Under the pieces are notes generated by a model. It had not been told where the DNA came from. It did no database searches and worked only from the letters and a program-made list of their open reading frames with translations. From the NCBI GenBank assembly GCA_900319865.1, contig ONQD01000033.1:1-38328 (forward strand): a stretch of DNA of 38,328 bases. The letters are read 5' to 3'. Made by a program: the position numbers and the translations under genes. This stretch comes from an uncultured Bacteroidales bacterium. GTDB taxonomy: Bacteria > Bacteroidota > Bacteroidia > Bacteroidales > P3. Positions 322 to 28,793 of the stretch are shown piece by piece. Each line of letters starts with the position of its first letter. Position 1 is the first letter of the stretch.

Positions 322-615
322 TCCCGTCCCCACCCTCTCCCTTCCACTCTCCACCGCTACAACTCATCCTATTATTCCCCTTTGGTTTCGTCCGGTTTCC
401 ACAACCTCGGTCGATACCATTCCTTTTGTTCCGTCATGTTTTCTCTTCCATCTACCGAAACGGACACCTTTAGCTCTGTCCCATCTCCGTTTCCTTCCGC
501 CGCCAATATTTCCTCAATTAGTTGTCTTTCAGGCGCTCTACCTATGTGCCTTCTTCCGTCCTTGCAGCTTCATTATCAGTTCATTCCCTCGATAGTCTTT
601 AATTATTTTTCCTCT

Positions 616-675
616 ACCGTCGTGGTGAAGAATGGCTTATTAAGAGCTTAATAAGAGGTGAGGAGGAAGCGAAGG
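616..675 (+). repeat. Copy A of a 60-bp intergenic repeat made of 11-bp units
   Basis: This segment aligns without gaps to 27680-27739, with 44 of 60 positions identical by hand count. After a shared ACCG it divides into five 11-bp units, the clearest being AGAGCTTAATA (643-653), AGAGGTGAGGA (654-664) and GGAAGCGAAGG (665-675). In this copy the second and third units form the inverted repeat CTTATTAAG-AG-CTTAATAAG at 636-655. Confidence 0.6.
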
Positions 676-698
676 CGGGATGGAAGGAAAAATAGTGT

Positions 699-726
699 GG
701 GGAGGAGGGAGAAAGGGGGTGGGGGG
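699..726 (+). other. G-quadruplex motif
   Basis: Four G runs occur on the + strand at 699-702, 707-709, 715-719 and 721-726, with loops of 4, 5 and 1 bases. This fits the canonical G3+N1-7 pattern. Another G-rich block follows at 786-799. Confidence 0.5.
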
Positions 727-865
727 CGTGTGTGGAGAAGGTTCGTTGAGGGTTCGGTGTGGGTTGGGGGAAGAAACGGTGCTGGCGGGGGGACGGGGAG
801 ACTTGGAATGGGGTAGGCAAGGAGCTGGAAGAATAGAGTGGGACGGGAAGTCTGGGCATAAACAA

Positions 866-923
866 TATCTTTGGGTATATTTGATAAAAATGTGTCGGAT
901 GAGCGAAAAAATATGTATATTTG
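866..923 (+). promoter_or_regulatory. Promoter region of aspA with three TAnnTTTG boxes
   Basis: TAnnTTTG boxes occur at 866-873 (TATCTTTG), 876-883 (TATATTTG) and 916-923 (TATATTTG). The last has the flanks seen at other promoters in this window: TG before and CA after. If transcription starts a few bases after 923, aspA has a leader of roughly 220 nt. Confidence 0.6.
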
Positions 924-935
924 CATTGCGAAAAA

Positions 936-961
936 ATGTGCCTATAATATATATAGCACAT
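936..961. promoter_or_regulatory. Dyad ATGTGC-N14-GCACAT, possible operator
   Basis: Perfect 6-bp inverted arms lie at 936-941 and 956-961, around an AT-only core apart from one C. The dyad sits just downstream of the 916-923 -7 box, where a repressor would block transcription. It does not match a Rex or CRP consensus well, so the binding protein is unknown. Confidence 0.3.
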
Positions 962-26892: not shown

Positions 26893-27390
26893 ATGAAACT
26901 GAAAAAATTCATTCTTCCCATGCTGACACTTGTGCTGTTGGCTTCCGGATGTACCAAGGAGTATGTTTACAATGGCTCTCAGGTTCAGACCATCCGTTTT
27001 AACATCACCCCCAGCGAGTGGAGACTAAATGAGGGTCAATACAAACCTGGTGCAAACAACTACCTCTATTGTGAAAAAGATGTTCCCGCCATCGACCAAC
27101 AGGTGTTCGACTACGGCACCGTCCAGGCCTACGTTTGGAACGTCTACGACCAGGCCACCAATTCCGGCGCCTGGAACACGCTGCCCTTCGTTTATCCTCT
27201 CGAGGTTCTTGAACAGACAGAGGATGGTGGCTACAATAGATATGTTATTGGCGAGAATCTCCGTTTCGAATGGGAAAAGGGTAAGGTGACATTTATCATT
27301 CAGGACCTCGACGGCTTCAAACCCGAGGATATGGTAAGCACCATCAGTGTGAAGGTGTGCATCACCTCCAACATGCGCAACGTACGTTAA
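26893..27390 (+). CDS. Uncharacterised lipoprotein, 165 residues
   Basis: The signal peptide ends LLASGC, with C20 as the lipidated residue. The mature part is short and beta-rich: QTIRFNITPSEWRLN, DYGTVQAYVWNVYDQ, LRFEWEKGKVTFIIQDLDG, then ISVKVCITSNMRNVR. I recognise no named domain, although such small single-domain lipoproteins are frequent in Bacteroidales. It has its own promoter and an excellent terminator at 27417-27449, so it is a monocistronic unit. Function unknown. Confidence 0.8.
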   Translation: MKLKKFILPMLTLVLLASGCTKEYVYNGSQVQTIRFNITPSEWRLNEGQYKPGANNYLYCEKDVPAIDQQVFDYGTVQAYVWNVYDQATNSGAWNTLPFVYPLEVLEQTEDGGYNRYVIGENLRFEWEKGKVTFIIQDLDGFKPEDMVSTISVKVCITSNMRNVR

Positions 27391-27416: not shown

Positions 27417-27449
27417 AAACCGGAGGTTTGCCAGTCAAACCTCCGGTTT
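27417..27449 (+). terminator. Rho-independent terminator of the 26893 lipoprotein gene
   Basis: A 14-bp perfect stem (AAACCGGAGGTTTG and its complement) with a 5-base loop, followed by TTTCTTATT. It begins 26 bases after the stop codon. Confidence 0.9.
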
Positions 27450-27854
27450 CTTATTATACCCCAAACCACCCAGTCGTGGTACCCACCAAACTGCATTAGC
27501 TAAAAACACAAATCATTGCATTTTAGTATTGCCGCAAAGAAAGGCTGCTATTATATTATATGTATAATAGACACCCCGTCCTTTTGCATCATTTCCGTTT
27601 CCCGTTTTGCTTCTTTTCGTCTTTTCCCCGTCTCCCTTACCCTTTCACGATGTAACAACTTCTTGTTGAAAGTATAATCACCGCAGAGGTTAAGAAGGGC
27701 TTGCGGAGAGCTTACGAAGAGCTTAAGAGTTAGCGAAGGTTGACGGAACTGGTAGGGGATGCGGGATGAATGCGGATTGGGCGCAGGACGAGGGCGGCAA
27801 CGGGACGGAGGGACGGTGCAATGTAGTGTGACCGATGTGATTATGGGAAAGACA
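27450..27854. other. Second long non-coding spacer with pyrimidine-to-purine switch
   Basis: No gene is visible between the lipoprotein terminator and the folD terminator. The + strand is pyrimidine-rich up to about 27660 (13 purines in 60 bases at 27601-27660). It is purine-rich afterwards (41 purines in 60 bases at 27721-27780). The change falls on the 11-bp repeat block at 27680-27739, as in the spacer at 322-865. Confidence 0.7.
27680..27739 (+). repeat. Copy B of the 60-bp intergenic repeat, tandem 11-bp units
   Basis: After a shared ACCG this copy shows consecutive 11-bp units: AGAGGTTAAGA (27685-27695), AGGGCTTGCGG (27696-27706), AGAGCTTACGA (27707-27717), AGAGCTTAAGA (27718-27728) and GTTAGCGAAGG (27729-27739). 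It aligns without gaps to 616-675. Confidence 0.65.
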
Positions 27855-27890
27855 AAGCCCGAAAGCAATGCGGGCAGGGCTTTCGGGCTT
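27855..27890 (-). terminator. Likely terminator of folD
   Basis: The 12-bp stem AAGCCCGAAAGC / GCTTTCGGGCTT has a 12-base loop and lies 46 bases after the folD stop codon. On the minus strand the tail is TTTGTCTTTCC, a weaker T run than the others here. Confidence 0.7.
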
Positions 27891-27935: not shown

Positions 27936-28793
27936 CTATTTGATTTGAAGATTCTTCTTGTAGGATTTCATGGTGTTTTCGAGCAGCGACACAATGGTGA
28001 GCGGGCCAACGCCGCCGGGGACGGGTGTGGTCCAGGAGCAGAGGCGGTCCACCTCACTGTGTTTTACGTCGCCGATGATGCGGTAGCCGCGGTGGATGCC
28101 CACATCGATGACGACAGCACCTTCTTTCACCATGTCGGCGGTGACAAATTCGGGTTTGCCGATTGCCACAATCAGGATGTCGGCCTGGCGGGTGATTTCG
28201 GGGAGGTTGGTGGTGCGGCTGTGGCAGATGGTGACAGTGCAGTCAAATCCCTTGCGCGAAAGGAGGTTGGCGATGGGGGTTCCGACGATGTTGCTGCGGC
28301 CGATGACCACGCAGTGTTTGCCGGAGGTCTCGATGCCGTAGCGTTTGAGGAGGGTGCAGATGCCCATGGGGGTGGCGGGAATGAAGGCATCCTCGCTCAG
28401 CACCATGCGTCCGATATTGATGGGTGTGAATCCATCAACGTCTTTATCGGGCGAGATGGTGTTTATGATTTTCTGTTCGTTGATGTGTTTGGGCAGAGGG
28501 AGCTGGACGATGAAGCCGTCGACCTCGGGGTCGGAGTTGAGGAAGTTGATGACCTCCAGGAGCTCGTTCTCGGTGGTGTGCTCGGGCATGCGGTAGACCG
28601 AGGAGGTGAAGCCCACTTCGTGGCTTGACTTCTCTTTGTTGGCAACATAGGTTTGGCTTGCGCCGTCGTTGCCTACGATTACGGCAGCCAGATGCGGGGG
28701 GCGATGGCCTTGGGCGGTGAGTTGGCGCACTTCGTTTGCGATTTCTTCTTTGATTTGCAGGGACAGGGCCTTGCCGTCTAATAACTGTAGCAT
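27936..28793 (-). CDS. folD: Bifunctional methylenetetrahydrofolate dehydrogenase / cyclohydrolase
   Basis: Converts 5,10-methylene-THF to 10-formyl-THF in two steps, supplying one-carbon units for purines and formyl-Met. The 285-residue length is standard. The catalytic lysine is K53 in YVANKEK (49-55). Other motifs are [27 protein letters not shown], the NADP-binding [18 protein letters not shown], and [18 protein letters not shown]. The gene lies 50 bases downstream of ffh on the same strand with no promoter box between, so ffh and folD probably form an operon. Confidence 0.95.

Follow-up and report, generated by a model that had tools for sequence, protein, structure and literature searches.

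Introduction

Among described bacterial repeats, the REP/BIME class is the nearest in kind, by copy number and placement, to the element analysed here. As set out in the parts of PMC3733652 that deal with them, these repeats share with it more than 100 intergenic copies per genome, palindromic sequence and species-specific families; the same parts place CGTC REPs in Bacteroidetes, without a dedicated transposase. REP/BIME and short intergenic palindromes are also treated in PMC2817692. BrickBuilt, a MITE of Porphyromonas gingivalis, comes from the same order, is dispersed, and contains tandem repeats (PMC4596501). PINSR of Prevotella intermedia is intergenic, numbers 177 copies in one strain and 184 in another, and is described in PMC4755523 as restricted to four related species of the order. 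The term-searchable text of the stem-loop survey PMC2267715 mentions neither Bacteroid- nor Porphyromonas. No 11-bp dyad arrays in Bacteroidales were found in the literature, within mostly narrow searches that covered titles and the openings of abstracts and took in few subscription journals.

Dispersed chromosome-organisation sites include matS (MatP), SBS (SlmA) and KOPS, which are short single sites of fixed sequence. The parC locus of plasmid R1 has 11-bp iterons; in iteron arrays of the ParR-parC type, an oligomer binds a contiguous run of 11-bp repeats.

The DNA analysed here (the window) is a stretch of 38,328 nucleotides, contig ONQD01000033.1, from an uncultured Bacteroidales bacterium. 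Two distant spacers in it had been predicted to share an ungapped 60-bp non-coding repeat, interpreted as a dispersed intergenic element that could be a protein-binding array, a structured RNA or a small mobile repeat.

Results

The predicted match between positions 616-675 and 27680-27739 is real. With 44 of 60 positions identical, it is the best ungapped 60-mer between both spacers; base shuffles within 60-bp blocks, which keep the local purine bias, gave 39 or less in 300 trials, and neither 60-bp copy touches a called gene. Its limits are incomplete, since a weight matrix made from 80 copies revealed elements of 117 bp at 563-679 (copy 1) and 27627-27743 (copy 2). The 60-mer covers the centre and the greater part of the right arm; a weaker inverted copy forms the left arm. 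On the forward strand, copy 1 matches the matrix with 98.4 bits (profile match 560-682, E 8.1e-22) and copy 2 with 104.6 bits (profile match 27625-27744, E 3.3e-23), and besides these two elements nothing in the window scored above 15 bits. The dyad axis of copy 1 is at 621 (column 58, counted from 0, of the 117-column alignment), between a pyrimidine-rich left arm that matches the family less well (563-620, plus strand) and a purine-rich right arm of five 11-bp units (622-679, plus strand), which holds most of 616-675. In copy 2, the axis, taken from that of the family, is at 27685, and the left and right arms, both on the plus strand, occupy 27627-27684 and 27686-27743. From 27688 the right arm reads GGTTAAGAAGG GCTTGCGGAGA GCTTACGAAGA GCTTAAGAGTT AGCGAAGGTTG, and an 11-bp tandem repeat spans 27685-27725.

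Copy 1 is flanked by the 3' end of rex, whose stop codon ends at 321, and by aspA, whose ATG is at 1152. A weaker periodic flank was detected past its right arm by a de novo scan (702-822, plus strand; lag-11 score 55/110 at offset 701), and a promoter-like sequence, recognised by consensus match only, is located about 240 bp past the copy, upstream of aspA (920-948, plus strand). No intrinsic-terminator-like hairpin was found around copy 1. Copy 2 lies between two convergent genes, one at 26893-27390 (plus strand), for which no family matches were obtained, and folD at 27936-28793 (minus strand). The former gene is followed, upstream of copy 2, by an intrinsic-terminator-like hairpin at 27417-27449 (plus strand). 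On the folD side, an inverted repeat seen by eye, AAGCCCGAAAGC...GCTTTCGGGCTT (27855-27890, minus strand), is a possible folD terminator; its 12-nt loop exceeds the limits of the hairpin scan, and it is absent from the scan output.

The genome searched for further copies comprises 2.9 Mb in 84 contigs, and either window copy gave additional matches when used as a query. A sequence-only profile was built from 27 copies, three of the first 30 loci being duplicates that were left out of alignment A1. Among the best 150 of 666 profile candidates there were at least 109 distinct sites, so the claim of a dispersed element stands; 41 of the 109 were matched on both strands, as expected of a palindrome. 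Neither of the two outcomes named beforehand as refuting the prediction, equal scores in composition-matched shuffles and a lack of additional copies, was observed. That the element is intergenic was also borne out, as 76 of 80 copies examined overlap no called gene. For detailed analysis 80 of the 109 sites were fetched, and 70 of them, all less than 75% identical, served as representatives.

An ungapped alignment of the 80 copies spans 117 columns, with a content of about 93 bits. The element is two-fold symmetric, each arm consisting of five 11-bp units, and the dyad axis is exact: the complementary match is 0.485 across it versus 0.24-0.33 at neighbouring axes. In the outward direction, the consensus of the right arm is GGTTAAGAAAA GCTTAaTAAGA GgTTAaTAAGA GCTGAAGAGtT AGCGAAGCtGG; the left arm has the same pattern in weaker form. 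The purine fraction is 0.32 on the left side, which is pyrimidine-rich, and 0.69 on the purine-rich right side. The anticipated 11-bp phasing is evident: at lag 11 the self-match amounts to 0.475 for the right arm and 0.386 for the left one, versus about 0.27 further out. Pairwise identity across the 80 copies, unit by unit, is 0.72, 0.62, 0.60, 0.66 and 0.67 in the right arm and 0.56, 0.43, 0.40, 0.47 and 0.55 in the left, and drops to 0.38 and 0.31 beyond the right arm and to 0.37 and 0.31 beyond the left, in agreement with the predicted quick fading of flanking similarity. In both arms conservation is thus highest or nearly highest at the centre and in the outermost unit (0.72/0.67 right, 0.56/0.55 left).

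All 80 elements score at least 62 bits and shuffled loci at most -39, the elements' own scores being somewhat inflated because they also served to train the matrix. No second element, and nothing else above 15 bits, was found in 425 kb scanned (the window and the stretches around sites). Two subfamilies in this genome reach about 80-93% identity with flanking DNA included; their homology extends into the flanks and stops at different points in each pair. Four elements were compared with DNA of a strain about 97-98% identical to this genome, giving identities of 0.940, 0.940, 0.966 and 0.974 inside the elements and of 0.969, 0.976, 0.979 and 0.974 in their surroundings. Conservation of these elements is no higher than that of the surroundings and there are zero indels inside them, a result that counts against strong selection on single copies.

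Other repeats accompany the family. A repeat of about 57 bp (TGTGTTTTCCTGAAATCGCTTGACAG...GGCTTGTCA) is found directly past the right arm of nine of the 80 elements (L017, L023, L027, L029 and others), always in one orientation and at +81 to +105 relative to the centre of the element, and a tenth element has it at -125; this repeat is perhaps a small insertion element with a preference for these sites. Spacers of this genome also contain further dispersed repeats of about 70-180 bp (L154:15084-15223; L085, L111, L134 and L135).

The possibility that the element acts as RNA was examined in several ways. RNAalifold returned 0 pairs for the family alignment. The match between arms was 0.4855 within copies versus 0.5037 between copies, with all 500 permutations at or above the former value (80 copies), and 0.4941 versus 0.5111 for the 70 representatives. 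RNA fold energies of real and arm-swapped elements were equal (-27.5 and -27.4; P 0.93). Rfam gave no match at the element in eight loci, and its single match, below the gathering score, was more than 1 kb away. The structured RNA option of the original prediction finds no support in these results, and a conserved hairpin was rejected for the family of this genome. In congener G025, where an array family occupies 14 places (one coding-like by eye; 13 were given to the centre finder and 12 were used), the arms match somewhat better within a copy than between copies (0.606 versus 0.571; 14/5000). This runs counter to a general statement that there is no hairpin, the number of copies being small. 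In congener G029, the five distinct copies left after those with identical cores had been merged are near-perfect palindromes (42-47 of 47 pairs), and the within-copy match was again lower, which the unlike orientation of these copies may alone account for.

Placement relative to genes was determined with gene calls from a simple hexamer model rather than a standard finder. The 77 elements with genes on both sides lie between convergent (19), divergent (20) and tandem (38) genes, in spacers with a median of 737 bp, and are therefore not tied to gene starts or ends. Arrays in nine congener samples were likewise intergenic (71 of 75). Array-bearing gene ends faced an element here in 11 of 20 cases versus 10 of 45 for other ends (P 0.011); with spacers of at least 200 bp only, the conservation of array position between species was 11/20 versus 8/21 (P 0.22). 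A conserved array position across species was therefore dropped, as the difference vanishes once spacer length is controlled. An array upstream of aspA is present here and in eight of 27 congeners. These arrays are not counted above the base rate because long spacers often carry arrays: among spacers of at least 300 bp, 16 of 31 do so in G016, 11 of 19 in G012 and 2 of 12 in G002.

Along the chromosome, 93 of the 109 sites fall in contigs of known length and define 55 gaps, with a mean of 22.5 kb, a CV of 0.52 and a minimum of 7.4 kb (P below 1/3000). The null in this case was uniform placement or a 2.5-kb grid, not the real spacers: the uniform model gives a CV of 0.96 and 17 gaps below 7.4 kb, and the grid gives 12 such gaps, versus none observed. 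In G016, 200 kb of contiguous sequence contains 21 array spacers with a mean gap of 9.5 kb and a CV of 0.43; drawing the same number from the real spacers of the contig gives a CV of 0.93-1.04 (P below 1/3000), and seven detection settings all gave P 0.021 or less. Two gaps below 5 kb were observed there versus 8.3-9.3 expected from the real spacers, and both join arrays of the same label. Differently labelled neighbours are separated by 7.7-18.2 kb (seven gaps), and four more gaps that involve an unassigned array measure 5.8-10.0 kb; the labels are rough because they are motif counts and some arrays carry units of two labels. That close pairs share a label is the reverse of the outcome expected if close pairs were lost through homology. 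For G012 the test of even spacing is borderline or falls short of significance (P 0.02 and 0.04 when spacers are at least 120 bp long, 0.053 with 200 and 0.44 with 300; 0.10-0.13 over seven settings), and the nine arrays of G002, too few, showed nothing clear (P 0.04-0.23). Arrays are thus evenly placed in this genome and in G016.

A profile search of 60 relatives, 36 of them congeners, identified family members in three only: G027, G017 and, weakly, G002. The contigs that carry the four members in G027 have, in the parts compared, 94-98% identity with this genome, and the aspA protein of G027 is 91% identical; the members were therefore read as contaminant and no second species was counted. 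In G027, C16, C41 and a portion of C27 (L075, L154, L155, L224) apparently represent a strain 94-98% identical to this genome, and this RUG264-like assembly appears to contain contamination or misbinned DNA. An exact-pattern scan of a genome-contig collection, from which records near this genome were possibly left out, returned one contig, of rumen assembly RUG264, which scores the same as C16. The single member in G017 is, by eye, nearly identical to a copy here, and G002 gave four weak profile matches.

The architecture recurs in congeners with other letters. The orthologous rex-aspA spacer of G025 contains an analogous array of different sequence, in which TATAGCG and GTAAGAG units surround the centre ACAAAAGT. 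Outside G025, this family gave single weak matches in G007 and G012 (41 genomes), and its sequence had no match in the genome analysed here. A de novo lag-11 scan of 1,173 kb from 15 sampled congeners revealed 68 arrays, distributed over 12 of them; applied to 519 kb from 18 genomes that belong to other families, the same scan found two arrays. One of these two, L288:2675-2800, is from another family of the order and is the sole array in 78 kb of its genome; with 11-bp units and a dyad score of 28/44, it looks genuine. Samples of G021, G028 and G061 (40, 20 and 20 kb) contained no array and 181 kb of G027 a single one at the scan threshold; the system can therefore be sparse. Units include TGAAGAAC in G016 and G023, TCGAAGAACAA in G029, GTAATACTACC, TAAAGAACTCG and AAGTCGAACTC in G012, and AACGTTAAACG in G002. 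A GAAGAAC core is common to several unit types, so not all families are unrelated. Congener arrays have the same architecture, that is, 11-bp units, an intergenic location and often a dyad, and mostly species-specific sequences. In G016 (contig C3) array families are regional, mainly of the TGAAGAAC type in 5-61 kb and mainly of the AAGGTCG type in 98-196 kb. With regard to the GTAG or CGTC tag that REPs have at one end, arms in G029 end, by eye, in GACGG (CCGTC on the other strand); those of the family here do not.

Tandem arrays with 7- and 8-bp periods also occur in the genus, and lag 11 was therefore compared with other lags. Arrays of 7 bp outnumber those of 11 bp in the genus samples (84 versus 68) and, at the threshold used to list 62 arrays, are absent in G016, G029 and G003. 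A dyad above the random 99th percentile was present in 20 of 68 11-bp arrays versus 7 of 83 7-bp and 0 of 38 8-bp arrays, and 34 of the 62 listed arrays exceed the random 95th percentile. The dyad is frequent in arrays and not universal. Samples G002:C2 and G012:C7 contained 42 and 16 lag-7 arrays; there is little dyad symmetry in 7- and 8-bp arrays.

In G029, 40 of 40 scored copies (query included; better strand, about 103-119 bp) are 94-100% identical, with 144 candidates at first look. The same query reached at most 79% in G019, matched G001, G004 and G012 over short stretches, and had no match in the other 36 genomes. In G012, all 21 of 21 scored copies (query included; better strand) are 94-100% identical, with 72 candidates, and the query matched elsewhere only in G019, G023 and G024, at 68-79%. 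To judge from these identities, some array families are young. The small mobile repeat of the original prediction is upheld as far as amplification in single species is concerned, which is clear; the analysis found neither convincing target duplications nor sharp ends, nor a Y1 transposase correlated with the arrays. When 104 settings were tried for target duplication in the 70 representatives, the best gave 0.283 versus 0.232 matching letters (z 3.7), and these representatives contained no exact 9-bp duplication. Repeats of 4-6 bp that bracket eight young G029 copies were no longer than at random centres. Past the outermost unit, which is well conserved, similarity falls off stepwise across another one to three 11-bp units. 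None of these marks of a MITE was convincing. The Y1 transposase family PF01797 was found in 29 of 41 genomes, including G027 and G021, which have few or no arrays, and was not found in the array-bearing G016 and G029; its distribution does not track the arrays, and on this ground a REP/RAYT reading was set aside. In G025 and G029 arms are shared between copies, by eye, as separate modules. In-place copying by gene conversion is at least as likely as transposition for the spread of the element, because there are no clear target duplications or Y1 link, homology tracts vary and arms are shared separately.

Discussion

We tentatively favour a reading in which each element is a DNA-level chromosome-organising site, and this may well be correct. 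A candidate DNA-binding protein would nucleate at the central dyad and then bind cooperatively outward in both directions, along one helix face, with one related motif per helical turn. The resulting nucleoprotein block between transcription units would be a boundary or anchor of a supercoil or nucleoid domain. The sites would be kept apart, at about 10 kb in one congener (G016) and 22 kb here, and concerted evolution would make the sequence of the unit uniform throughout a genome and exchange it for another from species to species, with architecture and spacing retained. The copies, the dyad and the mostly species-specific families are observed. The period, the intergenic placement and, in two genomes, the spacing are common to arrays of different letters; it is therefore mainly the geometry that is preserved. 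A protein that reads one motif per helical turn from a dyad would explain the period and the symmetry, and a chromosome-scale role would explain the spacing and the indifference to gene orientation; we infer both the protein and the role. Of the options in the original prediction, the protein-binding array fits best, given the 11-bp phase, the dyad, the even spacing and the lack of RNA co-variation, although no protein was identified. A spacing of about 10 kb is near the reported size of supercoil domains in E. coli.

A selfish, REP- or MITE-like mobile repeat appears rather unlikely. Non-autonomous palindromes would be copied into spacers by a putative enzyme, in species-specific bursts, with the 11-bp units as enzyme-binding subsites at both ends. 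The young amplification confined to G029 (40/40) and to G012 (21/21) agrees with this, and the strong conservation of the centre and the outermost unit here is like that of terminal repeats; however, the edge steps down gradually over further 11-bp units, and neither the 70 representatives nor the eight young G029 copies show a clear target duplication. The two subfamilies (about 80-93% identity) do take in flanking DNA, as a mobile unit might, but their homology endpoints differ pair by pair. PF01797, for its part, was not found in array-bearing G016 and G029 and was found in array-poor G027 and G021, and mobility alone does not predict even spacing. The variable length of the subfamily tracts, which include the centre, is what one would expect if the elements were break-prone palindromes repaired from other copies by ectopic gene conversion, with close pairs lost by recombination and no function involved. 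The lack of clear target duplications and the arms shared as modules in G025 and G029 (by eye) fit as well. Such functionless concerted evolution is nevertheless very improbable: it does not yield an 11-bp period, differently labelled neighbours in G016 are also kept apart and the only close pairs there share a label, and no decayed relics at 15-62 bits were present in the 425 kb scanned, all of it around matches.

It is improbable, too, that the elements are two-way Rho-loading sites. In this reading the transcript of a polymerase arriving from either side would be rich in pyrimidines, with more C than G and a C every 11 nt, and each arm would be a rut site that ends read-through and antisense transcription at the borders of transcription units. 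As quoted in the part of PMC6407284 that sets out RhoTermPredict, the criteria are a C/G ratio above 1 and cytosines every 11-13 nt. The inward arms here have a C/G of 3.54, with C over G in 97% of 160 arms, and ratios are 1.72 in G002, 1.49 in G023 and 1.21 in G029, but in G016 the ratio is 0.84 and the pyrimidine fraction 0.51, so the property is not general (congener values are from those of the 62 listed arrays with a dyad score of 26 or more). The location between genes in every orientation and arms that pair no better than swapped arms would suit Rho; about 93 bits of common sequence and the even spacing would be left unexplained, and copy 2 already adjoins an intrinsic-terminator-like hairpin. 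In its composition, a bidirectional Rho site fits this genome and fails in G016.

Returning to the chromosome-organising site, it is possible, if doubtful, that there is a class of bacterial domain sites defined by architecture (a dyad, a unit per helical turn, a spacing of about 10-22 kb), whose recognised sequence is rewritten across the genome in each species by co-evolution with the putative binding protein. This would be a bacterial parallel to fast-evolving centromere satellites. Were these proposals true, sequence alone would reveal the positions of chromosomal domains, about 10-22 kb apart, in a little-studied gut lineage, and the sites would allow tests of how bacterial supercoil domains are delimited, a question still open. 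They would further mean that about 100 non-coding sites turn over across the genome from one sister species to another, and that a single genome, that of G029, has palindromes of about 100 bp and nearly identical sequence at 40 or more positions (144 candidates).

The elements are a variant of dispersed intergenic palindromic repeats, and the chromosome-organising reading is a claim about what they work like. PINSR and BrickBuilt were rejected as the identity of the element, since their anatomy differs. BrickBuilt, as PMC4596501 outlines it, has 23-nt direct repeats, leader and tail segments, IS-like terminal repeats and 19 copies, and is not an inverted 11-bp array. PINSR measures 188 bp and is stated to be without terminal inverted repeats, and the relevant parts of PMC4755523 make no mention of 11-bp arrays or of spacing. 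Compared with REP/BIME, the elements here are longer (117 bp versus 20-40 bp), are arrays of 11-bp units and are evenly spaced, with no conserved hairpin and no link to a Y1 transposase (RAYT). ParR-parC is a single plasmid locus, whereas the elements occupy more than 100 dispersed intergenic sites. In the way they would work, they resemble matS, SBS and KOPS, with many dispersed sites and one DNA-binding protein, putative for the elements here; they differ from these in being long arrays in helical phase whose sequence changes between species.
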